Shown here piece after piece: positions 862 to 17,116 of a DNA stretch of 64,000 nt (position 1 is the first letter of the stretch; the number at the start of each line of letters is the position of its first letter). Where the stretch lies: assembly GCF_016742135.1 (NCBI RefSeq), contig NZ_JACVCG010000004.1, forward strand, positions 1 to 64,000, in the 5' to 3' direction. Origin of the DNA: Brevundimonas sp. (GTDB lineage: Bacteria; Pseudomonadota; Alphaproteobacteria; Caulobacterales; Caulobacteraceae). Under the pieces are notes generated by a model that was not told the DNA's origin, searched no databases, and was given only the letters and a program-made list of their open reading frames with translations. A program made the translations under genes and the position numbers.

Positions 862-954
862 CGCCGGCATTTCAGACGGTTCAGACCATTCAGACGGTGT
901 TTCGACAAAAGGCAAGTTCTTGAGTTGTTCTCACGCCCGACCCATATTGCCGAC

Positions 955-1227
955 ATGGTCCAGACGACAGCCCGCAAGGCGCCAAAGGGCAGGGGCGCGC
1001 GCTCCAATGCCACCGGCCGCTATGAGGCCCATGTGGCCGAGGCCATGGACGACGGCTGGACCTCTGACGACGCCGAGGTCGCCCCGCTGCGCACCGAGCA
1101 GCTGATCGAGCGGCCGAAGACCATCATCTCGAAGAACACCAGCCCGGATGTCGGCTTTGACCGCTCCATCAATCCCTACAAGGGCTGCGAGCACGGCTGG
1201 CCCTATTATTCTGTTACACACCCATGA
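955..1227 (+). pseudogene. 5' fragment of chromosomal PA0069-family radical SAM gene, interrupted by the integrative element
   Basis: MVQTTARKAPKGRGARSNATGRYEAH...IISKNTSPDVGFDRSINPYKGCEHG then diverges to WPYYSVTHP-stop. Host sequence ends at 1199 and continues at 16268. Confidence 0.95.
1195..1199. other. Left junction core (attL), GGCTG; likely crossover dinucleotide TG at 1198-1199
   Basis: gagcacGGCTGgccctatt; the same GGCTG at 16268-16272 gives in-frame rejoining of the host gene. Confidence 0.88.
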
Positions 1228-2312
1228 CCGAGGCTGTGAAACTGAGGTCATCCGTTCGAGGGCGCGGCGCAAAATCGAACGCCAGCGGCCGCTTCGAAGC
1301 CACCCAGGTCGAGGCTTTCGACGACGGGTGGACCGATGAAGACGCCACCGCTTCGACCCAGATTCCGACGACGATAACCCCACTCCGCTCTCGAACCATC
1401 ATCAGTAAGAACCAGAGCCCCGACATCGGCTTTGAGCGTTCCATCAACCCATACAATGGTTGCTCCCATGGATGTAGTTACTGCTATGCGCGCCCGTCCC
1501 ATGCCTACTTGGGCCTATCCCCGGGCCTGGATTTCGAGAGCCGCATCTTCTTCAAGCCCGACGCCGCGCGTCTCTTGGAACAGGAACTCAGCGCCAGGAA
1601 ATACGTCTGCAAGCGCATCCACATAGGCGGCAATACAGACCCCTATCAGCCGGACGAGCGCGAACTGAAGATCACGCGTAGCGTGCTGGAGGTGGCGGCT
1701 CGGTTCAACCAGCCTGTCAGCGTCATAACTAAATCCAGCCTGATCACGCGCGACCTCGACATCTTGGGCCCGATGGGGTGCGACCGGCTGGCGACGGCAT
1801 TTGTCTCCATCACGACCCTGGATCGCGGTCTGGCCCGCGCGATGGAGCCCCGGGCCTCGACACCCGCTAGACGGTTGGTAGCGATTTCCCGTCTGGCCGA
1901 CGCCGGCGTGCCCGTCGGTGTCGGTTTTGCCCCTGTCATTCCCGGACTGAACGACCATGAGTTAGAGTCCGTCTTGGAAGCGGCCGCCAAGGCCGGTGCG
2001 GTGACCGCTATGTACGTCACCTTGCGCCTGCCGCTGGAGATCAAGGACCTGTTTCGCGAATGGCTGGCAGACGCCCGACCGGACCGTGCGGCCCGGGTCA
2101 TGTCGCTGGTTCGCCAAACGCGCGGGGGCAAGGACTACAACGCTGACTGGGCCCAGCGGATGAAGGGCGCCGGCCCCGTAGCCGACCTGATCGGGGCTCG
2201 GTTTAAGGCGGCCGTCAAACGCTATGGGCTGGACGGACCCCGCCACGATCTGGATACGACGAGGTTCACCGTTCCACACGGGTCAAGAAGCCAGATGGAC
2301 CTTTTTGAGTAG
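1224..2312 (+). CDS. PA0069-family radical SAM protein, full-length element-borne homologue of the interrupted gene
   Basis: INPYNGCSHGCSYCYARPSHAYLGLSPGLDFESRIFFKPDAA... to RSQMDLFE; collinear with both host fragments over its whole length. Confidence 0.95.
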   Translation: MTEAVKLRSSVRGRGAKSNASGRFEATQVEAFDDGWTDEDATASTQIPTTITPLRSRTIISKNQSPDIGFERSINPYNGCSHGCSYCYARPSHAYLGLSPGLDFESRIFFKPDAARLLEQELSARKYVCKRIHIGGNTDPYQPDERELKITRSVLEVAARFNQPVSVITKSSLITRDLDILGPMGCDRLATAFVSITTLDRGLARAMEPRASTPARRLVAISRLADAGVPVGVGFAPVIPGLNDHELESVLEAAAKAGAVTAMYVTLRLPLEIKDLFREWLADARPDRAARVMSLVRQTRGGKDYNADWAQRMKGAGPVADLIGARFKAAVKRYGLDGPRHDLDTTRFTVPHGSRSQMDLFE

Positions 2313-2447
2313 ACCGCGCGAGTATGTCTGCGATGCGCCAGAAGCGGTCATTGACCTATCGCTGGGGAGCGGACGTTCAGGTCACCGGGATATAGACGGT
2401 CGAACAGAACAAGGTGCTGGTGTCAGCGGCAAACCTACGAGCGGCTA

Positions 2448-2713
2448 GTTTGAAAACTCCCACTCCTGAGTGACGAAGTGGCGGGCGACTTCGGCGCTCG
2501 CGTAGCAGCAGGCGTCGTGCAGGCGATCATCTTTTTCAGGACCACAAGCATCAGCGACCGCCTTGATGCAGATGAATTGAGGCGGAGCGGCCCTCGAATG
2601 CTTGCACGCGTAGTAGAAGCCATATGATTCCATGTCTACGCCCCCGATATTGTCGTTAAGAGACTGGATGCTTTCGACAACGTCAGTGTCCGCAATCACC
2701 GCAGAGCCAGAGA
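2448..2713 (-). pseudogene. C-terminal fragment of a nucleoside phosphorylase / MTA-SAH nucleosidase-like protein, truncated by the IS
   Basis: LSGSAVIADTDVVESIQSLNDNIGGVDMESYGFYYACKHSRAAPPQFICIKAVADACGPEKDDRLHDACCYASAEVARHFV; upstream codons are lost at the IS end. Confidence 0.75.
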
Positions 2714-3523
2714 GTGCTGTCAACTTAACTCCCACGCATCGCCAAGTTGAGCGGCTTCGATCACGACGCCACAGCCGCATTCCAGGCAGCATGCGCCTGC
2801 GCCCGGAACGTCCGAAGCGTGCTTCGGCTGACCAAATGCCGCTGGGTGTAGAAGGTGTTGTAGACGGCGGCGTGGACCGTCAGGAACCGCTGCGCTGAGG
2901 CGGCGCTCTTGAAGCCGATCATCTGCCGCTCGCGCTTTCGGATCGGCAGATGCGAGTTCTCAGCACGGTTGTTCTCGCGGAGGCGGCCGGGGTGATGGCG
3001 GTCGCTGAGACCCAGCCGATCCAGAGCGGTCTTGTACGAGCCGAGGCCGTCCGTGACGATCGTCTCCGGCACAACTGGCTGATCCCGCAGCAGCTTTCTC
3101 AGGAAGCTTTCGGCGGTCGCGGCATCCCTTCGGCGCTCGACGGTGGAACCGAGCACCTCCCCTTCGTCGTCGACCGCGCGCCAGACGTACATGTACCGCC
3201 CGCCGATCGAGCTCACCATCTCGTCCAGATGCCAGCGCGGCGAAGGCGCCGGTCGGCGTCGCCGGAGGTTCCTGGCGATCTGCAGTCCGAACTTCCGGCA
3301 CCAGTCGCGGATCGCCTCGTAGGAGACGTCGATGCCGCGTTCGGCGAGGATCTCCTCAACGTCCCGGAGGCTGAGATTGAAGCGGTAGTAGAGCCAGACC
3401 GCGCGCTTGATGACGTCGCTTTCGAACCGGTGCCGCTTGAAGCTGATTTTCGCCATAAGTCCCTGCCCTGCATGAACTTTTCAGCATATCAGTAGAGACG
3501 GGTTAGGGTTAGACTGACAGCAC
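2714..3523. mobile_element. IS6-family insertion sequence (~810 bp)
   Basis: Terminal inverted repeats GTGCTGTCA (2714-2722) and TGACAGCAC (3515-3523), imperfectly extended inward; IS6-type transposase inside. Confidence 0.85.
2761..3456 (-). CDS. IS6-family transposase (DDE)
   Basis: FKRHRFESDVIKRAVWLYYRFNLSLRDVEEILAERGIDVSYEAIRDWCRKFG...WHLDEM...VTDGLGSY...NNRAENSH. Confidence 0.96.
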   Translation of the reverse strand: MAKISFKRHRFESDVIKRAVWLYYRFNLSLRDVEEILAERGIDVSYEAIRDWCRKFGLQIARNLRRRRPAPSPRWHLDEMVSSIGGRYMYVWRAVDDEGEVLGSTVERRRDAATAESFLRKLLRDQPVVPETIVTDGLGSYKTALDRLGLSDRHHPGRLRENNRAENSHLPIRKRERQMIGFKSAASAQRFLTVHAAVYNTFYTQRHLVSRSTLRTFRAQAHAAWNAAVAS

Positions 3524-3618
3524 CATCGCAGCGGCGGTTGGCTCCGCATCCAACCACTGCCTACAGTCCCAGTATCGCCTCAAGTCGTTCCATTCTCCTC
3601 GAACCGGAGCCATAACTG

Positions 3619-4422
3619 ATGAAATCCCTCCTAAGCGCCGCCGTTCTCGTCGCCACAACTTGCGGCGTAGCGCCTTGCCTGGCTCAGTCCATCGTACCCG
3701 GGCAGGTAGTTTTCGGAGCATTGGCTCCGGAGGACCGGGTGGATCACAGGGACGCACACTACGATTGTCATGATTTTGCGGGCGTCGCAGGCCAGTCGAT
3801 CGAAATCGTCATGCGCTCCATCGACGTGGATGCCTGGGTCGCGTTGCATCGTGGACCCGGCTGCCAGGGGGACTGGGAGGACGCCGACGACGACGGCGGG
3901 TTCGGCTTTCGAGCAGCGCATCTGGAGGCGACGCTGGATCAAGGGGGCACTTGGTCGTTCCGGGCCAGCAGCGCGGATTCACGGGACGTCGGAGACTACA
4001 TGATCGGGCTGGCTGTGGCGGACACGCCCGACGCCGCCCGCCTGCGCGCGGATCCCCTGACGATGACCGTCGGCAGTGAGGTGTCCGGCGAGTTGTCTCC
4101 GGTTGATGCCAACCTGGCGCCTGGGCGATATTTCGACTGCTATGAGGTCACCGTCGCCGGACCGGTGCAGGTGATGCTGAATGTCCGATCTGCGGATTTC
4201 AGCCCTGTCGGGCACGTCTACAGGGACCCGTCGTGCCGGCGGGGGTATATTGTAGAACTAGATTCCACGTCCGGGTCGGGCGAGGTTGATCCTCAAGAAT
4301 TTCGCGCGTCTGGGCTGCTCCCCAGAGCAGGGAGTTATTTCATCGCGGTGACCAGCGGCGGCCTTCGGGAGACGGGCGCTTACTCGATGAACATCACCGC
4401 GGCTCCTGCGACCCGACCGTAG
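3619..4422 (+). CDS. Secreted protein, PPC-domain-like repeats
   Basis: Signal peptide MKSLLSAAVLVATTCGVAPCLAQ; two repeats of the form ...YDCHDFAGVAGQSIEIVMRSIDVDAWV... and ...YFDCYEVTVAGPVQVMLNVRSADFSPVG... Confidence 0.7.
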   Translation: MKSLLSAAVLVATTCGVAPCLAQSIVPGQVVFGALAPEDRVDHRDAHYDCHDFAGVAGQSIEIVMRSIDVDAWVALHRGPGCQGDWEDADDDGGFGFRAAHLEATLDQGGTWSFRASSADSRDVGDYMIGLAVADTPDAARLRADPLTMTVGSEVSGELSPVDANLAPGRYFDCYEVTVAGPVQVMLNVRSADFSPVGHVYRDPSCRRGYIVELDSTSGSGEVDPQEFRASGLLPRAGSYFIAVTSGGLRETGAYSMNITAAPATRP

Positions 4423-4567
4423 GGTAGATCAAGCTGGGCCCCGGCTCCGGCGTGTGCGGCGCAGAACGCTTCGGCGGCAGGCGAATGACGCAACCTGACG
4501 TCCTCTCCTTCTGACCTTGACGCTGGATGCCGCCTCCAGCTTCACTTCGATCTCCAAGGAGTGAGCG

Positions 4568-4993
4568 ATGTCTCTGGATCGTACGATTTTGGCGTTTGCA
4601 GCGGCTCCCCTTGCGTCGAGTCTTTCGCTCGGAGCCGCCCTCAGCGCGTCCTCAGGCGCGGACCCGACGTCTTGGGTTTTCGGGACCTTGATGATCGGAC
4701 TCTTCGGCCTCCTGTTCACCGTTCCTGCGACGGTGGTCGGAGGCGGCTCTTCACTTCTTTTGCTCAAGGCGACCCGCCGCGACAGCCTGCCCTGGTTCAT
4801 TCTGGCAGGGGCGATCGTCGGTCTGCTCTCGGGATTGATCGTGTTGTCCAGCGGCGGAACCCCTGACGAGCACAGAGAGCCGGGCTGGGTGTTGTTGCTG
4901 ATGACCGCATTCGCAGGAGCGGTGGGCGGCGCAGCGTTCGGTTTGGTCCGCGGCCATCCGACCACTGATGGCGAGGTGTCTAATGTTCTTTGA
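4568..4993 (+). CDS. Small multi-pass membrane protein, unknown function
   Basis: Several hydrophobic segments; gene order with short gaps to the next ORF. Confidence 0.65.
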   Translation: MSLDRTILAFAAAPLASSLSLGAALSASSGADPTSWVFGTLMIGLFGLLFTVPATVVGGGSSLLLLKATRRDSLPWFILAGAIVGLLSGLIVLSSGGTPDEHREPGWVLLLMTAFAGAVGGAAFGLVRGHPTTDGEVSNVL

Positions 4994-5693
4994 GTTCATC
5001 GCGACTTCTCCGGCTCTGGCCGGTCACATTCAGGATCCGGCCGAGTGCCGCGTCGCGTCTCCCGAGCAGATCGCGCGGTTCGAAGCCGTCCGCACCGATC
5101 CCGCCTATGCCGACGCCCGCGCTCGCAACCTCGCTTACGAGGACGAGCTGTTCGCTGAGTTCGTCATTCCCGATGGCCCATGGCGATCGCCGCCTCCCGA
5201 CGCCCGCGTGCTGTTTCGAACGATCGCGCCGCCGGGCGGCCTCTACGGCAACACGATCTGGACGGCCGTCTGGCAGGAGAGCGACGGCTCCTGGTGGTTC
5301 TGGAAACAGGACCGTGACCCGCGGGTCGTCCAGCAGCCGCCCCAGCCCGGCTCCGCGCCCTCGGCCGCATCGGACACCGAGCGGTGGAAACCCTTGAGCG
5401 GTCGCCTTCGGGCGCAGAACGCGCAGGCGATCGAGGCGAGCCTCGAGGATCCTTGCCGCGCCGCGGCGGGACCTTTCTGGCCCGGCGAGGTTCCCTACGT
5501 GCCACCGCCTCCCCCTCCGGGCGTGCCCATGATTCCCCCGCCGCCTCCGACTCCGCCCGTTCCTGACTCCACCGTCGTCCATGTTCAGATGACCGAGCGG
5601 GGCCAACCGATGCGGCGGCTCGGCGCGTGGCGGACAGGGCATGGCAACCGGCTCATCGGCGCCGTCGCTTGGCCCCAACCGGAACTGGAGTAG
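4983..5693 (+). CDS. Hypothetical protein with proline-rich linker
   Basis: ORF with YVPPPPPPGVPMIPPPPPTPPVPDST linker; overlaps the end of the upstream ORF. Confidence 0.65.
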   Translation: MFFEFIATSPALAGHIQDPAECRVASPEQIARFEAVRTDPAYADARARNLAYEDELFAEFVIPDGPWRSPPPDARVLFRTIAPPGGLYGNTIWTAVWQESDGSWWFWKQDRDPRVVQQPPQPGSAPSAASDTERWKPLSGRLRAQNAQAIEASLEDPCRAAAGPFWPGEVPYVPPPPPPGVPMIPPPPPTPPVPDSTVVHVQMTERGQPMRRLGAWRTGHGNRLIGAVAWPQPELE

Positions 5694-5696
5694 GCG

Positions 5697-6191
5697 ATGG
5701 TCCGTGCCGCTCTTGCCCTGGTCCTCGTCCAGGCCCCGCTGACCCCCGTGCCCGACGCTCTCCGCGCTCCTGAGGCGGAGATCGTCGTGCTCGCCACAGG
5801 CGGCCCCGGAGACCCCGTCGCCGACCGGACCGTGCGACTGATCGAGGCGCTCGAAGCCGACGGCCGGCTCATTTACGGCCGGCCTTCCTTCGACGGCGAG
5901 GTGTTTCGACACTGCGTGACGGAAGACCCGAACCCCACCACCGAACGCCGCGACTGCGTGCGGGCCGCCATTCCTGAGCGCGCCTCGGCAACGCCGTTGG
6001 TGGTCATCGTCCTCGGCGACACGCGCGAGCGCGGCTCCTATCAGAGAATGGAGTGCATAGGTCCGCTCAGCGAAGGCTATCGCCGGTCGATCTACGTCAG
6101 GGATTTCGATCACCCCAGACCCGACGTGTCGGGCGGCACGCGCGACGCGGCTCTTCGGTGCATCGAGCAGGCGCTCGCAGCCAGCAGATAA
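5697..6191 (+). CDS. Hypothetical protein
   Basis: Continuous ORF in same-strand gene string, 3-nt gap to previous ORF. Confidence 0.6.
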   Translation: MVRAALALVLVQAPLTPVPDALRAPEAEIVVLATGGPGDPVADRTVRLIEALEADGRLIYGRPSFDGEVFRHCVTEDPNPTTERRDCVRAAIPERASATPLVVIVLGDTRERGSYQRMECIGPLSEGYRRSIYVRDFDHPRPDVSGGTRDAALRCIEQALAASR

Positions 6192-6212
6192 ACACTCCCG
6201 CGTAACCAGCCC

Positions 6213-6758
6213 ATGATCGCCAGGATGTCGCCCAGGATGCGCAATCTGTTTTGGACCTTCGCCTTCTGCCTTGTGACGGCTCTAGCGGCTCCATCGGCGC
6301 GGGCCGCGCAGATGACGCCTGCGGCGGAGGCCCCCGAGACGCAGGAACAGCGGCTCGACTGCAGCCGGCTCACCGACAGCCTTTACTGGTTCTGCTACGC
6401 GCTTGATCGGAGAAACTGCGGCGTGGCGGATCGCAGCCACTACTGGTTCTGCAGGGCGATCTCCGAGCGCAAATGCAATTTCGCGGATCGCTCGGACTAC
6501 TGGGAGTGCCGTGCGCTCACCGAGAGGCGGTGCAACTTCGCCGACACAGATCGGTACTGGCTGTGCAAGGCGTTCACCGAGGATTGCGCCCTTGCACCGA
6601 TCGAGCACCGCGACTTCTGCTATGCGATCGCTCCGGTCTATCGCGGCAGGGAGCCTTGGTGCCTCGTGAGTGAATGGTGCCCCCGTTGTCCGATGCGGAC
6701 ACGAAGGCATGGCTGCGTGGCGTTGGCGAAGGGACACGCCGCCGGACAGTCCGGCTAA
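6213..6758 (+). CDS. Secreted Cys/Trp-rich repeat protein
   Basis: Signal peptide then five ~19-aa repeats: DCSRLTDSLYWFCYALDRR/NCGVADRSHYWFCRAISER/KCNFADRSDYWECRALTER/RCNFADTDRYWLCKAFTE/DCALAPIEHRDFCYAIAPV. Confidence 0.7.
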   Translation: MIARMSPRMRNLFWTFAFCLVTALAAPSARAAQMTPAAEAPETQEQRLDCSRLTDSLYWFCYALDRRNCGVADRSHYWFCRAISERKCNFADRSDYWECRALTERRCNFADTDRYWLCKAFTEDCALAPIEHRDFCYAIAPVYRGREPWCLVSEWCPRCPMRTRRHGCVALAKGHAAGQSG

Positions 6759-6785
6759 ATGGCCGATTGCTCACGGAGAACGGAA

Positions 6786-7211
6786 ATGTCGCGGACGCAT
6801 ATGTTCCAGGCTGCGGTGCTGGCGATCTCACTGGGCCTTGCAGCCCCCGCCGGCCCAGCTTGTGCATGCACCTGCCTTCCCCCGGATCCCGCCGACCAGG
6901 TGGACGAGGCCGACGTCATCTTCGTCGGCAGGGTCGAGCGCGTCGTTCGCGTGGGCCAGGCTGGCGGCCGACCGATCAGCGCGACCGTCTTCAGGATCGA
7001 ACGGTCGCTCAAGGGCGACGTCGGAACGTGGACCGCCGTTCGTCACCAGTCCGGTGACAGCAGCCTTTGCGGCATGCAGTTCGACCGCGACCGCGAACAC
7101 GTCGTCTTCGCGCGTCGAGCCGAAGGGCGCCTTTACGCCCAGGCTTGCAGCCGGGACTGGCTGCCGCTCGAGCGATATGAAGCGGAGCTGATTAAGCTTC
7201 AGACTCGATGA
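6786..7211 (+). CDS. Secreted TIMP/NTR-like domain protein
   Basis: Signal peptide followed by CACTCLPPDPADQVDEADVIFVGRVERVV, typical of bacterial NTR/TIMP-like proteins. Confidence 0.65.
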   Translation: MSRTHMFQAAVLAISLGLAAPAGPACACTCLPPDPADQVDEADVIFVGRVERVVRVGQAGGRPISATVFRIERSLKGDVGTWTAVRHQSGDSSLCGMQFDRDREHVVFARRAEGRLYAQACSRDWLPLERYEAELIKLQTR

Positions 7212-7263
7212 TCACAGGCATTGCTGAGTGGGCGAGATGGTGCCCGCATTCCTGTGGTCCCGT

Positions 7264-7611
7264 TCAGGTTCCCCAAGCCTCGCAGGATCCCGGCATCCAA
7301 TCCACGCTGGCGCCTTCCGGTACTTGTCCGCGCCCGAGAAGCAGCTTTTCCGTGTTCGCCGGCGCCGTCACGAGCTGCTTGCCGCCCGCACGAGCCACCA
7401 CCACGCAGTAGGGGGTGTTCGACGTATTCTTCGCCCAGAGCTCTCGGTACCCGTAGGTCGAGCTGTTGTAGCCGGGGGGATAATGCCAAACGGTGATTTG
7501 CCCCCATTCGGTGCTGTGAACTTCCGGTTCGGGAGACAGGAATATCGTCTCACACCCCAACAAAACCGTGGATGCCGAAACGATGAAGAAGGCTTTCAGT
7601 AGTCGCGCCAT
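7264..7611 (-). CDS. Putative lipoprotein
   Basis: MARLLKAFFIVSASTVLLGCET lipobox. Confidence 0.65.
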   Translation of the reverse strand: MARLLKAFFIVSASTVLLGCETIFLSPEPEVHSTEWGQITVWHYPPGYNSSTYGYRELWAKNTSNTPYCVVVARAGGKQLVTAPANTEKLLLGRGQVPEGASVDWMPGSCEAWGT

Positions 7612-7797
7612 TTGCAGGATACTCTCCTTAAGTCAGACATTTGTGGAATACTTGGATGGCCCCCGATTCAGGTATCCAAGCCTCGTAGAGGAGTCCGAAT
7701 CCAGCAGCGCCTCGATCGTGGAGGTTGAGAAAGAGGAAATCAGATTCCAGCACCGCAACGTCGAAGCGCTTGCGCGGCAAGAAAGTCGGATCCCAAG

Positions 7798-8889
7798 TCA
7801 TGGCCGCCACCCGGGGATCGCGGCCGTCATGCGCCACATCATCTGGTCCAGCTTCAGGGTGACGTCCGAGCCAGGGCCGCCGGTGTTGGTCAGTGCCGCC
7901 ATCACATAACCCGAGCGCGTCTTGCACATGAAGGCGGCCGTGCCGTGGATGATGCCCGTATGCCACCAGTTGTCCCACTGGTTGATCTGCCATCCGTGGC
8001 CGTAGGCCGCGCCGGCGAACGGCCCGGTGGCCATCAACCTCGCCGAGGCAGGACGCAGGATTCGTCCCGGGCCCTCCGTCCCGTCGACGGCCGTCACGAA
8101 TCCGACCAACTCCCTGGCGCTGGCGATCCAGCCGCCGTTCGCGTCCATGCGGCGCACGTCCACCGCGGTCGGATCATCGAAGATCGTCAGCGCGCGATAC
8201 TCCACCTCGCCGACGCCCCGCGCGCGGTCCCCGACGCGCATGCCCCCCGCACCGCAACGGGACAGGACGTCGCGACGAACCCAGCCCTCATAGGGTTCCC
8301 CCGTCACCTGCTCGATGACCCTGCCAAGGATGAGATAGGCGAAGTTCGAATAGCTTTGCCGTGTGCCGGGCGCGGCTTCCAGCGGACGCTCGGCCAGGGT
8401 TCTGGCGATGAGCTGACGTTGATCGAGGTCGGGGTGGGCGAAGACCGGATCACGCCCGTCGTTGGTCCACCCTCCTGCCGTGTGGTTGAGCAGGTGACGC
8501 ACACGAAGCGCCCGGAGCGGCCCGGAGGTCGGGCCGAACCGATCGCCAAGAATGGACCCCGGTCCGAAGATCGTGGAGTCCAGGGTCAGTCGGCCCGTTT
8601 CGATGAGCCGCATGACGGCCGCCGCCGTGATCGGTTTGGAAAGGCTGGCGATGCGGAACCGGTGATCATGCGTCAGCGGGGCGCCGGCCTGGTCGGCCCT
8701 CCCCCAAGCCCCGACGAAGCCGAGCGTGCCGTTGCGCGCCATCGCGACCTGCAATCCCGGCGCGCGCGTCGCGGCGAGGAAGCTCGCGGCCTCGGCGTCG
8801 ATGGCGGGGTTAGCTTGCCGCGCAAAGGTTGGCGACGTCGCCGCGAGGGCCAGTCCCCCAGCCAAGAGGTTTCTGCGCGTCTGGCTCAT
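7798..8889 (-). CDS. Serine hydrolase, beta-lactamase (class C-like) family
   Basis: FRIASLSKPITAAAVMRLIETGRLTLD (SxxK), YSNFAYLILGRVIEQVTG (YxN), WWHTGIIHGTAAFM. Confidence 0.92.
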   Translation of the reverse strand: MSQTRRNLLAGGLALAATSPTFARQANPAIDAEAASFLAATRAPGLQVAMARNGTLGFVGAWGRADQAGAPLTHDHRFRIASLSKPITAAAVMRLIETGRLTLDSTIFGPGSILGDRFGPTSGPLRALRVRHLLNHTAGGWTNDGRDPVFAHPDLDQRQLIARTLAERPLEAAPGTRQSYSNFAYLILGRVIEQVTGEPYEGWVRRDVLSRCGAGGMRVGDRARGVGEVEYRALTIFDDPTAVDVRRMDANGGWIASARELVGFVTAVDGTEGPGRILRPASARLMATGPFAGAAYGHGWQINQWDNWWHTGIIHGTAAFMCKTRSGYVMAALTNTGGPGSDVTLKLDQMMWRMTAAIPGWRP

Positions 8890-8969
8890 TACCCCTCTCT
8901 CTTCTCGCCAATTTTCAAGCGAGCCATAGACCGCGATTTTTCCCGGCCCCGCGTGCTTCAGACATGGCG

Positions 8970-9443
8970 TCAGTCGACTGCGCTATCTGTGATGCGCAAG
9001 GTGGCGTCGGGCGTCGCCCATTCTTCCTTTGCACCGACCCAGATGTCGTATTGGCCCGATGGCGCGGCAAAGATCACCAAGCCAGGATCGCCGCCGTTGA
9101 GGCCACTGTCGTCGTCACACGCCCAGCTCCCGTTCGGAAAATTGACCAACAAGGTCGTGTCCGCTTTCGAATGCACCAAGAACACCAAGGGGGCTTCGCC
9201 AGCGGTGTAGTCGACCACGAAGTGAGGGCCTCGCGACACGAAGCCCCGGCAACTTGGAAGCAGTTCAGTGACGTCGATGTTCTCCAGTCCGCCGGCCTTT
9301 AGCTCCACGGCGTGCTCCCCGCCTGCGGCCAAGCTCACCCGACCATAGATGGGCTCAATTCCTATCTCCTGCGCGTTCACCGATGCGGCGAGCGTGAGCT
9401 GCAGCGCCGAGGCGACGAAAAGAGCTTTGATCATGACTGTCAT
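8970..9443 (-). CDS. Secreted protein, PPC-like domain
   Basis: Internal start MTVMIKALFVASALQLTLAASVNAQE signal peptide; ADTTLLVNFPNGSWACDDDSGLNGGDPGLVIFAAPSGQYDIWVG. Confidence 0.65.
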   Translation of the reverse strand: MTVMIKALFVASALQLTLAASVNAQEIGIEPIYGRVSLAAGGEHAVELKAGGLENIDVTELLPSCRGFVSRGPHFVVDYTAGEAPLVFLVHSKADTTLLVNFPNGSWACDDDSGLNGGDPGLVIFAAPSGQYDIWVGAKEEWATPDATLRITDSAVD

Positions 9444-9719
9444 CCTTTCCCCAAGACGATGAAGGTTTTCGTTTAGACCTCCAACCCTCTTAAAGCTGAT
9501 GGTTGCGACCCGGAGGTTGTCGCGCGCGCTATTGCAGCGTCGCAATCCTTGCACTGCTGGCGACGGGAAACGATCGCTCCCGTTGCCTGCTACGAGTGAG
9601 ACGCGGATGTGCTGGGTCTTAGCTCCAGTGCCGGGCCTGAAGCGGACGGGTCGAAGGTCGGCCATGAGTCAGTTCCGGTCATCGGTCGTCTAATCCGCTA
9701 GCACTTCGCGGCGTCGGGA

Positions 9720-10169
9720 CTACAGGTACCCTCCCCCCGCGCGCCACGCGGCCACGGCGCCATTGAGCGGCGCGTTGGTGTCGCGGATCATCATCTGATC
9801 AGGCAGCGTGCCGACCGCGAAGGCCGTGTGTTCGTTGAGCCAGACGTCAACGTGGCCTTCAACATAGCCTGGGTACTGGTCCGCCAGACCGCGGATGGCG
9901 TGGTCGCTACCGATGAGAACCAAGCCAAGGGCAAACCGCAGGTCGGACCCGTCGCTATTCCCTTCCAGATGACATTTCATTGTTCCGGGCAGATCGGCCA
10001 CGTGATGCGAATACAGCGTGATACCCGGCGTCAGGTCCACCCAGCCTTGGCCCGGGATTTTGACCGTCAGCGTTGACTGCATGATCAGTGCGATGTCGCC
10101 CGGACCCGGACGCAGGACCGGGCCGCTACGGAAGCAGTGCGCGTGTTGAAAAACGTAGTCAGGCACCAT
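9720..10169 (-). CDS. Hypothetical protein downstream of the serine recombinase operon
   Basis: ORF on the same strand 2 nt downstream of the recombinase stop. Confidence 0.5.
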   Translation of the reverse strand: MVPDYVFQHAHCFRSGPVLRPGPGDIALIMQSTLTVKIPGQGWVDLTPGITLYSHHVADLPGTMKCHLEGNSDGSDLRFALGLVLIGSDHAIRGLADQYPGYVEGHVDVWLNEHTAFAVGTLPDQMMIRDTNAPLNGAVAAWRAGGGYL

Positions 10170-10171
10170 GT

Positions 10172-12271
10172 CTATTCATCTTCCGTGGGGACGCCGAACT
10201 GTCCGATGACGACGACGAAGGCTTCCGGAGCGCCAATGCGGATCGGCGGCAACGGCAGGTGCATCGACGGGATGGGCTCGGCGAACGCGAGGCGTTTCCA
10301 CTCTTCGTCGGAGCGTTCGATGTGGTTCCAGACATGGCCCGAGCGCTTCGGGCCGCACGAGATGCTCCGAATTTCGCCAGCCCTGTCGAGGTAGCGGAGT
10401 ACATTCAGGACGCGTCGCCCGTGTGATCCGGCCGGGCTATAGTCGGGCTCCCAGTCCGACGCGTAGCCCTCCGCCTTGACGATGGCATCGATGATGGAAC
10501 GGCGGGTCAGGGGAACGTCCGTGTCGTCCAACATCCGCGCCACCAAGGGCAAGTCGGCGTAAGTCTGGGCGTCAAGTCGGTCATCTTCCGGAATGTAATC
10601 AGTATAATAGCGGAACCGCACAGTCGCGGGGTCCTGCACTGTTCCCGGATGTGAAGAATGCAGGATGACACCAGCGTCGTCCGCCAGGTCGACCAGGGCC
10701 GAGAGCGGGCCTTCGACGGTGACGCGCACGGGTCCCTGGCCGCGCTTGTCGATGCGCTCCAGCTCGATGGGGGTCAGGGTGACGCGCTCGATCAGGCCGC
10801 GCAGGGTGTCGCGGGCGCGGCCGGCTTCGCGGTCGTCGCCGGCGAGGGCGGAGCGCAGGTCGTCGAGCATGGCGTCCAGGCGGGCGATCACGGCCTCGGC
10901 CTCCAGGGGCGCGGGGGCGGGACGCGGCTTGACCTTGGTCTGGCGCTCGAAGCGCTGGCGCTCGGCCTCCAGCCGGTCCAGCTCCTTCATCATCAGCTCG
11001 CCCGCCAGGCCCTGGACGCGGCCGTCGCGGACCGTGTCCATGATATTGGCGATCTGGCGCTCCACCTCATTTAGATGGGTGGCCCCGGCCTCGGTGCGGG
11101 CGGCCAGTTCGGCGTTGGCGCGCTCGATCTCGGCGCGATACTCGGCGAGGTAGGGCTCAATCAGTTCGGGCTTCAGCAGCCGGCCCTTGAGGCCCCATAG
11201 CACCAGGTCCTCCAGGTCCTCGCGGGCCACGCGGCGGCGGTTGTCGCAGGTCCCCTCGCGGGCCGAGCCGATGCAGCTCAGCTTGTCGGAGACGACCGCA
11301 TAGGCCTTGCCGCAGACGCCGCAGCGGATGAGACCCGAGAGCAGATAGTCGGGGCGACGCCGTCCCCGGAAACTTGAGGGGGCGACGCGGCGGGCCTCGA
11401 TGCGATCCTGGACGGCCTGGAACAGTTCGTCCTCGACGATGCGCAGGTGGGGCACGGGGATGACCAGGCGTTCGCCCTGGGGGGTGACCTTGGCCTTGGA
11501 GGTGCCCTTGTGGCGGTTGTGCTTGGTGACGGTGCGGCCCCATTCGTTGACGCCGACATAGAGCCTGTTGCGCAGGATTCCGGTGCCGACGTCGCGGTTG
11601 CCGTAGATGGCGCCGGGCAGCCAGGGTCCGCCTCGGGGACCGGGCACGCCCTCGGCGTTGAGGGCCTTGGCGATCTCCAGGGGGGTCATGCCGGCGACGT
11701 AGTCGGTCATGATGCGGCGGACGACGGCGGCCTGGACGGGATCGGGCTCGCGCTGGCCGTTCTTGCCGTTCAGCGCCAGGACCATGCGATAGCCGTAGGC
11801 GGGCTGCCCGGAGATGCGGCCGTCCTTGACGGTGCCCTCCTGGCCTCGGCGGGTCTTCTCGGCCTGCCCCTTCACATAGCGGGCGTTCTGGGCGGCCTTG
11901 AAGGCGACCTCCATGTCGCTGACCACGCCGGAGGAGACGGTGCAGACGACGATGTCCAGGGCCTCCATTTCCTCCAGCATCCCGTGGGTGCCCGAGGCGC
12001 TGCGGCTGAGGCGGTCCAGGTCCTCGACGAGGATGACGGTGAACTCTCCCCGGTCGGCGGCGGCCAGCATGGCGAACAGGCCGGAGCGCCCGATCACCGT
12101 GGTGCCGCTGCGCTCGGCGTCGTGATAGGCGCCGGCCTCGACCCAGCCTTGGCGCTCGGCGTAGGCGCGGCAGAGGGTCAACTGGTCCTCGATCGACTTG
12201 AACGTCTGGTGGCCGGTCGAATAGCGGGCGTAGACGGCGTAGCGGGTGCCCGACGGCGGCAGGGCGCTCAA
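10172..12271 (-). CDS. Large serine recombinase (resolvase + recombinase + zinc ribbon domains)
   Basis: RYAVYARYSTGHQTFKSIEDQ...VILVEDLDRLSR...LSGLIRCGVCGKAYAVVSDKLSCIGSAREGTCDNRRRV; TTG start in TTGA overlap. Confidence 0.95.
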   Translation of the reverse strand: MSALPPSGTRYAVYARYSTGHQTFKSIEDQLTLCRAYAERQGWVEAGAYHDAERSGTTVIGRSGLFAMLAAADRGEFTVILVEDLDRLSRSASGTHGMLEEMEALDIVVCTVSSGVVSDMEVAFKAAQNARYVKGQAEKTRRGQEGTVKDGRISGQPAYGYRMVLALNGKNGQREPDPVQAAVVRRIMTDYVAGMTPLEIAKALNAEGVPGPRGGPWLPGAIYGNRDVGTGILRNRLYVGVNEWGRTVTKHNRHKGTSKAKVTPQGERLVIPVPHLRIVEDELFQAVQDRIEARRVAPSSFRGRRRPDYLLSGLIRCGVCGKAYAVVSDKLSCIGSAREGTCDNRRRVAREDLEDLVLWGLKGRLLKPELIEPYLAEYRAEIERANAELAARTEAGATHLNEVERQIANIMDTVRDGRVQGLAGELMMKELDRLEAERQRFERQTKVKPRPAPAPLEAEAVIARLDAMLDDLRSALAGDDREAGRARDTLRGLIERVTLTPIELERIDKRGQGPVRVTVEGPLSALVDLADDAGVILHSSHPGTVQDPATVRFRYYTDYIPEDDRLDAQTYADLPLVARMLDDTDVPLTRRSIIDAIVKAEGYASDWEPDYSPAGSHGRRVLNVLRYLDRAGEIRSISCGPKRSGHVWNHIERSDEEWKRLAFAEPIPSMHLPLPPIRIGAPEAFVVVIGQFGVPTEDE

Positions 12272-12519
12272 GACCCGGCCTCCTCGACCCCGTCGTCATC
12301 GAAGATGCTGTCATCGAAGACCTCGATGACGATGTCCATCTCCTCCATGGCCTCCATCGCCTCCAGCAACGCCTGGGCGCCCAAGGCGCCGTGGTCGGGC
12401 CGGTCCAGGTCCTCGACCCCGCCATCCTGCTCGGCACAGGCCCGGCACCGGGGCTGCCGGTCGGTGGAGTAGCGGGCGTAGAGGGCGACGCGTGCGCGGG
12501 GCGGCGGCGGGGCGCTCAC
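12268..12519 (-). CDS. Mini resolvase-like protein (internally deleted catalytic domain)
   Basis: RARVALYARYSTDRQ retained, then EDLDRPDHGALGAQALLEAMEAMEEMDIVIEVFDDSIFDDD resembles the late part of a resolvase domain. Confidence 0.6.
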   Translation of the reverse strand: MSAPPPPRARVALYARYSTDRQPRCRACAEQDGGVEDLDRPDHGALGAQALLEAMEAMEEMDIVIEVFDDSIFDDDGVEEAGS

Positions 12520-13259
12520 GACTTGACCTTCCGGCGCTTCTTCTCAGCGTGGCCGTAACGCGCCCTGAGCGAACGCTCCTGGCGGAGAGACTCGGTCATG
12601 ACGCTCCTGAACGCCACGTCCAGATCGGTGACGACGCCGCCGACGACGGTGTGGACGGCGACGCCCAGGGTCTTCAGCTCCGCCAGCAGACGAGGGACCT
12701 GCGAGGCGTCGCGGCTCAGGCGGGACACGTCCTCGACCAGCACGACGTCGAAGGCGCCACGTCCGGCCTCCGCGATCATCGCATCGAGGCTGGGGCGGGA
12801 CCCCGTCATGCCGCTGACGGCGTTGTCCTTGTAGACCGTGACCGTCTCCCAGCCCCGCTCGGCCGCATAGGCCTCGCAGGCGTTCCACTGGTCGGCGAGC
12901 GGATAGGGCGTCGCCCGAGAGGCGCTGGCGCAGCGCAGATAGATCGCGCAGCGGTGAGCCGGGCTGGGGGCCGGAACGGGGGCGGCGGCGGGAACATCGT
13001 CTTGCGGCCCGTCATCTTGCGGGACGGCGGCGATGGTGACGACGCGGCCGGCGCCGGCGTCGGCGACGATGACCTCGAACTCCCCGTCGCCGAGGCGATC
13101 GACCAGGCCGTTCAATCGGGCTCCCGCCAGCCCGACACCGGGGCGATCCTCGTCGATCATGGTCACGACCCGCAGACCGGCGCGCTCGGCGTGCCGGGCG
13201 CAGGTCGTCAGGGTCGATCCTCCGGCCATGTAGAGCGCGGCCCGCGCCGGGGCCGTCAC
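12516..13259 (-). CDS. Tandem resolvase-domain protein without recombinase DNA-binding domains
   Basis: Degenerate N-terminal unit (AALYMAGGSTLTTCARHAERAGLRVVTMIDED...EFEVIVADAGAG) plus second unit (CAIYLRCASASRATPYPLADQWNACEAYAAERGW...DVVLVEDVSRLSRDASQVPRLL). Confidence 0.75.
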   Translation of the reverse strand: MTAPARAALYMAGGSTLTTCARHAERAGLRVVTMIDEDRPGVGLAGARLNGLVDRLGDGEFEVIVADAGAGRVVTIAAVPQDDGPQDDVPAAAPVPAPSPAHRCAIYLRCASASRATPYPLADQWNACEAYAAERGWETVTVYKDNAVSGMTGSRPSLDAMIAEAGRGAFDVVLVEDVSRLSRDASQVPRLLAELKTLGVAVHTVVGGVVTDLDVAFRSVMTESLRQERSLRARYGHAEKKRRKVKS

Positions 13260-13495
13260 TGGACGCCTCCCAGGACCTCGGCGCGGGCCGTAATCCGCGC
13301 CAGCGACAGCATCAGGGGCAGCAGTTCGGCCGTCTCATCATCGAGGCCGTTGCTCAGGCGGTGTTCGGCCTGGGCCTGGCGCTGATGGCTGAGCAGGCAG
13401 CCGAACGAGGCGTCGCCGTGGATCGGCCGGGGTTGAAAGGCCGATGCGCCGTCCGGTTCGAACGGCGCATCATGGATGGGATCGGCATAGGACAT
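13256..13495 (-). CDS. Small hypothetical protein, first gene of recombinase operon
   Basis: 79-aa ORF with GTGA overlap into the next gene and a promoter-like region upstream. Confidence 0.55.
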   Translation of the reverse strand: MSYADPIHDAPFEPDGASAFQPRPIHGDASFGCLLSHQRQAQAEHRLSNGLDDETAELLPLMLSLARITARAEVLGGVQ

Positions 13496-13509
13496 CAGGC
13501 GGCTCCTTC

Positions 13510-13555
13510 ATTGTGAGTGGAGCGCCTATTAGGTCTACGGTCTATTGTGAGTCAA
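13510..13555 (-). promoter_or_regulatory. Candidate operon promoter TTGACT-N18-TAATAG with two ACTCACAAT direct repeats
   Basis: On + strand: ATTGTGAGT at 13510-13518 and 13544-13552; AGTCAA 13550-13555; CTATTA 13526-13531. Confidence 0.55.
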
Positions 13556-13560
13556 GGTCT

Positions 13561-14310
13561 TTATGAGGTGGACTCGGGCGGCGGCAGGTCGTTGACGGCC
13601 GCGTGGAGCGCCAGAAGGGTGGGCAGGCCGACCTCGATGGTGATCAGACAGTCGGTCTGCGCGGATGCGTCACCGGCATTGGGAGGTTCCGACCAGGCCT
13701 CGGCGGGGGCGTAATGTTCGTGGAAGGCCTCGACCTCCTCCAGCCGTTTCCAGGGGCGGCCCAGATGAATCTCAGCCGCGAGGCCGGGCACATAGCTGAC
13801 GACGCGCAGGGCGCGGGCGTAACCGGGGCGGAACGAACCGCCGGCGGCGGCCGACTTGACCACCATCCACTGCATTGAGAACTCCGCCTCGGATACGCCG
13901 CTCGTCGGTTGTTCCCAGTCCGTCATATAGGCCTCGTGCCACTCGGCTATCGCCGGAGCGTTGGCGATCAGCCGTTCGACGGCGTCGGCGAACCCGACCT
14001 TCTCGCGCAGGAAATCCATCCAGGCCGGCATGTCCTCGCGCTGCATGTCCCGGTTCGGATCGTCGGGGTGCGGAACCAGGGATCGCAGGTTATGGACGGC
14101 GGCGACGGTGCCTTGGGGACTGCTGTCGCCACAGGTCGCCAGCAGCAGGGTCGCGGCGTCCTTGACGGTCATGATCGCCGCGCCGACGCCCCGCTTCGAG
14201 GACCGGATCAATCCCTCGTCGCGGACCTGCCGGGCGATATGAGCGATGGTCGCCTGGCCCCGACGGTCATGCCGAGCGATGGCTTCGATGAGAGCGGGAA
14301 GGCGCGCCAA
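13561..14310 (-). CDS. Hypothetical element protein
   Basis: Long ORF coding away from the integrase; no family recognised. Confidence 0.6.
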   Translation of the reverse strand: MARLPALIEAIARHDRRGQATIAHIARQVRDEGLIRSSKRGVGAAIMTVKDAATLLLATCGDSSPQGTVAAVHNLRSLVPHPDDPNRDMQREDMPAWMDFLREKVGFADAVERLIANAPAIAEWHEAYMTDWEQPTSGVSEAEFSMQWMVVKSAAAGGSFRPGYARALRVVSYVPGLAAEIHLGRPWKRLEEVEAFHEHYAPAEAWSEPPNAGDASAQTDCLITIEVGLPTLLALHAAVNDLPPPESTS

Positions 14311-14450
14311 ACGTGATGTCTCCTGACGTGGAACTATCTCCCCTTAGCGCATTGTGCTCTCAACTCCAAAAGAGCCTTGGCGTGCCGGTCTTATCATCCA
14401 CGGCTTGAATCGCGACGTCCTCGACATCGAGGTGGGAACGGCATTCGTAG

Positions 14451-16220
14451 TCAGTTTCCCTTGCGATGACGCCGGATGTAAGTGGCCAACCAGCCCGCGT
14501 TCGCGGGGGCCGGTCCGGTCCAAGGTTGCTCGTCTACCGGATAGTTTGAGAGGGTCGTTTCCACTCGCTCCGCCAAGGCCGGAGCGTCCAAATCTGGAAA
14601 CACCGCTTGCGTGAATGCCAGTCCATCGAAGCGCATGATGACCTTCCCATTGTTGTCGAACAGGCAGGCTAAGACACCTCCCGGCAGGAACAGGCCGATC
14701 TGACGTCCATCGCCGGGATCGACGCTGCACACGACCTTGCAGCCCAGTCCGACGATCGCATTGTGGACGCGCAGCCGCGCCGCCTGGCGGGTCGCCGGAT
14801 CGGGGTCGTCAAGAGCGTCGCGAACGTCCCGGACCCGCTCCAGGTGCTCGGCCGGGCTCACAGCTCCCTTCGCCGCTTCCAGCGCCTTGGCGGCGTCGTC
14901 ACGTTGCTCCATCAGATTGCGGAGGGATCGTTCGGCATCGACCAGCTTCGCTTCGATCGCCTCCGAGGCGCCAATCCGGCCAAGGGCCTCGACCCACCGA
15001 TCGACCTGCTCCTTCTGGTTGGAGATCGCCTTCTCAAGGTCGGCGAGAACCGCCGCCGAGGAAGCGGTCTGGTCCGGCTCGGCGAAGTAGCGATCATCGA
15101 GCGCGAGGTGGAGGATTTCATCCAACGCGGCGCGCTCGAATGGGTCGTAACGGAACATGGCCTTCTGCGAGCATCCGCGCCGGCGCGCCGCGAAGTTGCA
15201 CTGCCAATAGCGGTTGGCATTCGGCTGTCCGCTGGACCGAAGATGCATCCGGTTGCCGCAGGACTCGCACACGACAACGCCGGCGAACAAATTGGCGACG
15301 CTTCGGGTGTGGCGCCCCCCTTTCCGGGGGCCGGTCTTTCGCGATTCCACCTGAGCCCGAGCTCGCGCCACAAGGTCCGCATCGACGATCCGGGGGTAGT
15401 AGCCGACGATGCGTTGGTCGAACTTGGTCCGCTTGGCGCTAGTGTTGGAGAAGCCAGGCACATAGTCGCCTTCGACCGAAGGCTGGCTGAGGATCAGCTT
15501 GACCGAGCCGATTTCCCACGTCGGAGTCGACTCTGGCTTGCGCCATTTGCCCCACGCGGGGATGCCCCGCTCATTCAGCTCCTTCGCGATCCAACGCGCA
15601 CCCTTGCCCTGGGCCGCCATCTCATAGACGTCGCGGACCATCTGCGCGCGATCCTCGATAATCTCGAAGCCGCTCCGGTCGGCCTTGGCGATCAACCAAC
15701 CGGGCGCCTTTGCGGTGATGATCTGCCCCGTGGTCCGAGCCCGTTCCATGTTGCGGCCTATGCGGTCGAGCACACGTTCCGACTTCTGCTGGCTCTCGTC
15801 GTTCGCCAGCTTGGCTCGCATCAGAATTTCGAACACGCCCATGAGGTCGGCGCGAAGCCCCGCATCGTCAAAGACCTTGCCGCCATCGACAGTGGCGATG
15901 GTCAGCCCCGCCGCACACAGGTCCTCCATCCAGCGGAGGGTCGTCCGGGTCTCCTGACGAGACAGCCGATCCAGCTTCTCGACAACCAGGACCGTTCCAG
16001 CTCCGACGCTGCCGTCACGCACGCGGTTGGCAAAGAGGCCGAGTTCTCCGGCGGACAGGTGCGCCCCTGTCCATGCCGACCGTCCCAAGTCCTCAATCAC
16101 CTCATCGACAGGCCATCCCCGCTGCTCACAGAATTGTTGGCAGAGCTCCAGTTGCCGGTCGCGACTGGCTCCCCTCTCCTGCTTGGGCGTCGAAAAGCGT
16201 ATGTAGATAACAGCACGCAT
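14451..16220 (-). CDS. Large serine recombinase, probable integrase of the element
   Basis: MRAVIYIRFSTPKQERGASRDRQ...LVVEKLDRLSRQETRTTL...LFAGVVVCESCGNRMHLRSSGQPNANRYWQC; start 48 bp from the right junction. Confidence 0.96.
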   Translation of the reverse strand: MRAVIYIRFSTPKQERGASRDRQLELCQQFCEQRGWPVDEVIEDLGRSAWTGAHLSAGELGLFANRVRDGSVGAGTVLVVEKLDRLSRQETRTTLRWMEDLCAAGLTIATVDGGKVFDDAGLRADLMGVFEILMRAKLANDESQQKSERVLDRIGRNMERARTTGQIITAKAPGWLIAKADRSGFEIIEDRAQMVRDVYEMAAQGKGARWIAKELNERGIPAWGKWRKPESTPTWEIGSVKLILSQPSVEGDYVPGFSNTSAKRTKFDQRIVGYYPRIVDADLVARARAQVESRKTGPRKGGRHTRSVANLFAGVVVCESCGNRMHLRSSGQPNANRYWQCNFAARRRGCSQKAMFRYDPFERAALDEILHLALDDRYFAEPDQTASSAAVLADLEKAISNQKEQVDRWVEALGRIGASEAIEAKLVDAERSLRNLMEQRDDAAKALEAAKGAVSPAEHLERVRDVRDALDDPDPATRQAARLRVHNAIVGLGCKVVCSVDPGDGRQIGLFLPGGVLACLFDNNGKVIMRFDGLAFTQAVFPDLDAPALAERVETTLSNYPVDEQPWTGPAPANAGWLATYIRRHRKGN

Positions 16221-16267
16221 GGGCGAAGTTTAAGCTGCGTGCTCCCGTGCGTGCAATAGGATCGTAG

Positions 16268-16272
16268 GGCTG
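16268..16272. other. Right junction core (attR), GGCTG; likely crossover dinucleotide TG at 16271-16272
   Basis: gatcgtagGGCTGtatctactgctatgcc; codon phase (GGC TGT) matches the left host fragment. Confidence 0.88.
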
Positions 16273-17116
16273 TATCTACTGCTATGCCCGACCCTCTCAC
16301 GCCTGGATGGGCCTGTCCCCGGGGCTGGATTTCGAGAGCCGGATCTTCGTCAAGCCGGACGCCGCCCACCTGCTGGAGCAGGAGCTGGCCCATCCGAAAT
16401 ACGTCTGCAAACGCATCCACGTCGGCGGCAACACCGACCCCTATCAGCCGGTCGAGGACGAGCGGCAAACAACCCGCAGCCTATTGCAGGTCATGCAGCG
16501 CTTCAATCAGCCCTTCAGCCTGATCACCAAGTCGTTCCGGGTCACCCGCGACCTCGACATCCTCGGCCCCATGGGGCGCGAGAACCTGGCCCAGGTGTTC
16601 ATCTCGATCACCACGCTGGACCGCTCGCTGGCCCGGGCGATGGAGCCGCGCGCCTCGACCCCCGAGCGGCGGCTGGAGGCGATCAAACGCCTGTCCGATG
16701 CCGGCGTGCCCGTCGGCGTCGGCTTTGCCCCCGTCATCCCGGGCCTCAACGACCATGAGCTGGAGGATGTGCTGAAGGCGGCGGCAAAGGCCGGGGCCAG
16801 CCGCGCCATGTATGTCACCCTGCGCCTGCCGCTCGAGATCAAGGATCTGTTCCGCGAGTGGCTGGAGGATGCCCGGCCGGACCGCGCGAAACGGGTCATG
16901 TCGCTGGCCCGCCAGACGCGGGGCGGCCGCGACTATGACGCCGACTGGTCCCAGCGGATGAAGGGCACCGGTCCGGTCGCCCAGCTGATCGCCACCCGCT
17001 ATCGCGCGGCTGCCAGACGCTATGGCCTCGACCAGCCCCACCCCCTGCTGGACATCACCCGCTTCCGCGTCCCGCCCGAGTTCCGACCCCAGATGGACCT
17101 GTTCGACCTGGCGTGA
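16268..17116 (+). pseudogene. 3' fragment of chromosomal PA0069-family radical SAM gene
   Basis: GCIYCYARPSHAWMGLSPGLDFESRIFVKPDAAHLLEQELAHPKYVCKRIHVGGNTDPYQP... to RPQMDLFDLA. Confidence 0.95.

Follow-up and report, generated by a model that had tools for sequence, protein, structure and literature searches.

A mobile element in Brevundimonas splits a radical-SAM gene and carries a replacement copy altered at the attachment site

The PA0069-family radical-SAM gene is a DNA-repair-like bacterial gene. In Brevundimonas sp. (contig NZ_JACVCG010000004.1, positions 1 to 64,000; this whole 64,000-nucleotide stretch is called the window), a 15.1-kb mobile element at about 1200-16272 is located inside this gene and brings a complete gene of the same family with it. 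How can an element whose integrase recognizes a coding sequence carry another version of that sequence beside its own attachment site? We compared the insertion with related ones to locate the crossover, and examined the corresponding site in the element-borne gene.

Element anatomy and predicted expression of the replacement gene

The host gene starts at 955, is broken at 1198-1199 and resumes at 16271. Its 5′ part is joined at the crossover to nine element-encoded codons, followed by TGA. The features are as follows.

916-930, plus strand: LexA-type box GTTC-N7-GTTC (GTTCTTGAGTTGTTC), upstream of the host gene
955-1227, plus strand: host PA0069-family radical-SAM gene, 5′ part (tblastn with the element copy as query; sequence)
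1198-1199, plus strand: attL crossover dinucleotide TG, in the Cys84 codon of the split host gene (six reconstructed attB/attP pairs)
1224-2312, plus strand: complete replacement radical-SAM gene of the element, 362 aa, at the element's left end (NF033668)
14451-16220, minus strand: large serine integrase, 589 aa, N terminus toward attR, at the element's right end (PF00239, PF07508, PF13408)
16271-16272, plus strand: attR crossover TG, start of the resumed host 3′ half (junction comparison)
16271-17116, plus strand: displaced 3′ part of the host radical-SAM gene, from codon 84 to the stop

The integrase contains a resolvase catalytic domain, a recombinase domain and a zinc ribbon (PF00239, PF07508 and PF13408, respectively), all above cutoff. 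Its relatives at 75% (genome G458) and 76% identity (Marinicauda) adjoin the same radical-SAM gene. The replacement protein was assigned to the PA0069 family with an NF033668 score of 497.8 bits (cutoff 360), and it keeps the CX3CX2C cluster motif as C80-SHG-C84-SY-C87. It is 77.5% identical to the product of the host 3′ half (tblastn). DNA identity between the replacement and the host right half is 75%, and no stretch of perfect match exceeds 17 bp. Pfam scanning of a subset of the element ORFs detected no relaxase, conjugation or phage structural domain. The element also contains, on the minus strand, a second large serine recombinase (10172-12271) and a separate resolvase-domain protein (12516-13259). 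An IS6-family transposase gene (2761-3456) adjoins a nucleoside-phosphorylase fragment (2445-2792), which probably reflects an insertion into the element cargo.

The TGA of the truncated host frame overlaps the ATG of the replacement gene (ATGA, 1224-1227). This overlap and the nine-codon run past the crossover are common to the window, G458, G447 and copy B of G434. Only about 25 bp separate the crossover from the replacement start codon, which leaves no room for a promoter, so the replacement lacks one of its own. GTTC-N7-GTTC, the LexA motif of alphaproteobacteria, was found within 120 bp upstream in 69 of the 72 radical-SAM genes examined. The motif suggests that the host gene is under LexA/SOS control, and expression of the replacement from the host SOS promoter after integration would be the natural reading of this layout.

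Crossover site and related insertions

We rebuilt attB and attP for six insertions with integrases of the same family, namely those in the window, G458, G444, G488, Marinicauda pacifica and element E1 of G434. The host attB reads AAG GGC TGC GAG CAC GGC TG/T ATC TAC TGC (left junction 1180-1199; right from 16271). In G458, attL and attR have only TG in common; elsewhere the shared stretch is GGCTG (window), CTG (G444 and G488), GCTGC (G434) and AGCACGGCTG (Marinicauda). The attP dyad was centred on TG in five of the six reconstructions, with 15, 12, 14, 10 and 14 of 20 positions matching (1-9 at other centres). The dyad of G434 E1 was ambiguous (9 of 20 at TG vs. 10 at neighbouring centres). 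Since the stretch shared across the six insertions shrinks to TG and the attP dyad centres there, we concluded that TG is the crossover dinucleotide; it supplies bases 1 and 2 of the codon for the second cluster cysteine (Cys84). All the junctions compared come from completed insertions, presumably made by attP × attB recombination through the large serine integrase.

A first-pass annotation of the window had regarded GGCTG as the integration core and proposed that the element copy is changed in it. GGCTG is shared only at the junction pair of the window, and it was ruled out as the functional core because the shared stretch in G458 is only TG. TG itself is retained in the copy, so the proposed core change does not hold. 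The replacement retains TG because it encodes the catalytic cysteine, and a change there would lose Cys84.

The insertions in G458 and G447 have the same layout as the window, each with its own replacement copy. The replacement is full-length in the window and G458, and in G447 it is full-length across two contigs. G434 carries two copies, A and B. No replacement is carried by the elements in the congeners G444 and G488 or by that in Marinicauda (39.7 kb); the left end is occupied by the integrase gene instead. Because these three elements lack one, the replacement gene is an option within the elements of this integrase family, not a rule. In the elements without a replacement (loci L066, L067 and L004/L012), the integrase gene lies directly behind the LexA-boxed promoter of the split host gene, a placement that could make excision SOS-inducible.

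Searches of plasmid and phage collections found no close integrase or replacement gene. The viral contig set gave one relevant prophage contig (IMG/VR 3300011665_000024; L124/L158; 40 kb), whose integrase is 52% identical and located at the same site. It ends in the radical-SAM 3′ half and covers the right end only. In class-, order- and phylum-wide integrase searches, Marinicauda was the sole added insertion at the Cys84 site. An order-wide search with the radical-SAM gene added genome G749 (L143, L144), in which a distantly related serine recombinase of 28% identity is inserted a few bases upstream, with GAG as the shared sequence; no replacement gene was seen adjoining this insertion. The G749 insertion in the same motif suggests that the cysteine motif is a repeated landing site. 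Short tandem duplications of GAACAT and of about 19 bp were seen at attB or right next to it in genes that carry no element (L073 1640-1690 in G388 and L074 1960-2010 in G445), and these are possibly scars of failed recombination.

Altered footprint in the replacement copy

The part of the replacement gene that corresponds to attB was compared base by base with 68 native genes of the genus and scanned for divergence in windows along the gene.

1453-1494, plus strand: altered attB-equivalent footprint, covering TG (1473-1474) and 20 bp on either side (per-base comparison with the 68 natives; divergence window scan)

The site in the window copy reads AAT GGT TGC TCC CAT GGA TGT AGT TAC TGC, with aatggttgctcccat at 1455-1469 and GGATG at 1470-1474; the sequences, coordinates and left-side changes given in the first-pass annotation were exact on re-reading. 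It had described the alteration as synonymous and the protein motif as kept, and both statements stand in part. GGC>GGA is synonymous, but K78N (AAG>AAT) and E81S (GAG>TCC) on the left side and I85S (ATC>AGT) on the right side, the last of which it missed, are not. The cysteines, Gly and His of the motif are kept, whereas residues 78, 81 and 85 are changed, and KGCEHGCIYC of the host becomes NGCSHGCSYC. Almost all of the 68 native genes have KGCEHGC(I/V)YC, with K78 in 96%, E81 in 99% and I85 in 99%.

The motif is TGCSHGCSYC in G434 copy B and TGCAHGCSYC in G458 and G447, and its cysteines, Gly and His are unchanged in the element copies. All four intact or near-intact copies, from four genomes and with three distinct footprints, are altered; they form one related clade and are not fully independent evidence. 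The first-pass annotation had called for such a survey, and the counterexample it named, an element copy that retains the attB core, was not among the four, none of which keeps the native site. At -8, -7, +3 and +16 the copies differ from bases that are invariant or nearly so in the natives, and at -1, +1 and +19 from the base that natives usually have. The same positions carry different bases in different copies (A/T at -1, C/G at -8, G/C at +3, G/T at +16), and +16 is changed in all of them. The Ser85 codon is AGT/AGC in two copies and TCC in the others. The -1 C>A change was rejected as a diagnostic base, as 10 of the 68 natives have A or T there (GGA/GGT before TG).

Codons 78-90 were the top 13-codon window for excess codon divergence in each of the three distinct copies (1st of 339, 1st of 339 and 1st of 231). 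The footprint-to-rest divergence ratio was 1.19-1.23 for the four element copies, and the compared natives had a maximum of 0.93 and a median of 0.43. When single bases were counted instead of codons, the footprint ranked 4th to 8th by excess, and a stretch near codons 42-57 was also diverged. Among positions conserved in 95% or more of the natives, the window copy is changed at 3 of 13 in the footprint vs. 6 of 197 outside (p = 0.013), and the G458 copy at 3 of 13 vs. 4 of 197 (p = 0.006). A test limited to synonymous changes was marginal (p = 0.02 for the window copy, not significant for the other copies). Purely synonymous recoding was thus set aside as statistically weak, with three amino-acid replacements present. 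We concluded that the B-arms have been recoded, with three tolerated residue changes, and that the alteration is neither in the core nor purely synonymous.

Could the site have changed by chance, the copy being dispensable and subject to ordinary drift or to relaxed constraint? The identity between copy and host, only 78% for protein and 75% for DNA over the whole gene, and the truncation of G434 copy B would fit such decay. However, the excess of changes at native-conserved positions is specific to the footprint, and the cysteines, Gly and His of the motif have been preserved; we regard chance alteration as improbable. The first-pass annotation had also suggested that recoding prevents homologous recombination over the site. 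As the main effect of the recoding, a block to recombination of the copy with either host half seems to us very improbable, even though no exact run longer than 17 bp is left between the copy and the host right half. Copy-host similarity is low gene-wide, which makes such avoidance needless, and the excess codon divergence peaks in the integrase footprint; altering 40 bp would hardly hinder recombination in the remainder of the 840-bp overlap.

Inherited divergence is a further alternative. The copy may have been taken from a diverged lineage that already had NGCSHGC, in which case resistance would be a by-product that allowed capture. The single chromosomal gene of G429 (L070) is 88% identical to the window copy; its site is AATGGTTGCTCCCAT, with a left arm identical to that of the window copy, and it shares N78 and S81. 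The element copies and the G429 gene form one supported clade. On the other hand, the G429 gene is native at -1, +3 and +16, its right arm is native except for +19, and its footprint ranks only 17th of 339 windows. It is nested in the element clade, lies outside the usual neighbourhood of the host gene, and may thus have come from an element itself. In addition, codon choice at 78, 81, 85 and 89 differs between the window and G434 B copies despite their close relationship. The G429 gene may represent the donor lineage or a former element gene that was domesticated. In the donor case, some of the left-arm change would have come with the captured gene, and the elements themselves would have acquired only the changes at -1, +3 and +16. 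We consider inherited divergence unlikely as the full explanation, and it is the least unlikely of the alternatives to recoding against the integrase.

The first-pass annotation had attributed the recoding to protection of the replacement gene from the integrase. Its suggestion agrees with our results in that the site is specifically and repeatedly altered, in a pattern that would fit avoidance. One element copy is known to have been invaded. In the nested insertion of G434 (L063, G434:C6, 1284-2650), the host 5′ half is followed by copy A of element E1; the left end of E2, a second and window-like element, breaks copy A at the same TG. E2 brings copy B, which shares 88% identity with the window copy, contains GGATG and is truncated at residue 241. 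The interrupted copy A has the native AAG at codon 78 and the native C at -1, and is nearer to attB; its right half is missing and the integrase of the invader was not recovered. Element copies can therefore be attacked, and the attacked one was the nearer to attB, a single event that serves as an illustration and not as a statistic.

Proposed integrase self-immunity and its relation to known systems

We propose the following mechanism, which we hold to be probable as a whole. The large serine integrase would recombine attP and attB at TG in the Cys84 codon and destroy the LexA-boxed radical-SAM gene, and the full replacement gene directly behind attP would compensate for the lost target. Integration would place the replacement behind the host promoter, with its translation coupled to the truncated host frame through ATGA. 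With TG fixed by the cysteine, the B-arms would have been altered at the tolerant residues 78, 81 and 85, and also at the silent positions -1, +1, +16 and +19. The integrase of the element itself, and competing ones, would then bind or recombine the replacement poorly. In the circular element, attP and the attB-equivalent of the replacement lie in direct orientation with a spacing of 275 bp (1198 to 1473). If that site were functional, the integrase would delete the 275-bp segment, destroying attP and the start of the replacement; after integration, the replacement would be a fresh attB for the same or rival elements.

The replacement site is altered relative to the host target, and a complete linked replacement gene is present. 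Recoding for integrase self-immunity is well supported by these sequence comparisons, with loss of substrate activity as its predicted effect and selection as its presumed cause. Immunity through the arms is plausible because arm bases matter in serine integrases: in PMC5311408, phiC31 attB is cited as mutation-sensitive at bases 2, 15 and 16 from the crossover (position +16 being altered in every copy here), and the two phiJoe attB sites compared differ at six left-arm bases. For the broader view of these elements as a natural recoded-rescue system, targeting a cysteine codon, with arms selected to evade their own and rival integrases and a gene expressed only after integration by SOS-promoter capture through ATGA, we see the chances as evenly balanced.

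Serine integrases targeting radical-SAM genes are already known. The Streptomyces phage Samy inserts in an Rv2578c-family radical-SAM gene (PMC12924846), and the phiJoe and SCO2603 elements have attB within a radical-SAM gene (PMC5311408). Like the window element, they combine a large serine integrase with an attB in a conserved radical-SAM gene; they differ in that no replacement gene with an altered site is reported in the accessible parts of these papers, and the radical-SAM gene of the phiJoe attB is an unrelated, B12-binding one, with the site 74 bp from its end (PMC5311408). Serine-recombinase IMEs of Firmicutes share site-specific insertion inside genes, but the disrupted genes are described as dispensable (reviewed in PMC5704250), whereas the window element carries a full replacement that would be under the host promoter. 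Islands in tRNA and tmRNA genes also compensate for damage to the target; they restore the gene end from island sequence (PMC4383910), whereas the window element supplies a whole gene with a changed site. Among open-access texts we found no precedent for a whole-gene replacement whose site is recoded, an absence that is weak evidence.

Synthetic Cleave-and-Rescue, or recoded-rescue, gene drives link a target-destroying enzyme to a resistant rescue copy. The window element similarly pairs a destroyer with a linked rescue copy, whose resistance is putative; unlike these drives, it is natural, bacterial and integrase-based, and its changes include amino-acid replacements. If the proposal is true, the element would be a bacterial parallel to such drives, and a conserved protein-coding gene would be usable as a landing site at little host cost, through full replacement and self-immunity. 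It would also show an arms race that is simple enough to test and confined to 40 bp of coding DNA: catalysis fixes the dinucleotide, which leaves change to the arms alone. The copies would further serve as naturally occurring attB variants from which the arm specificity of the integrase could be learned.
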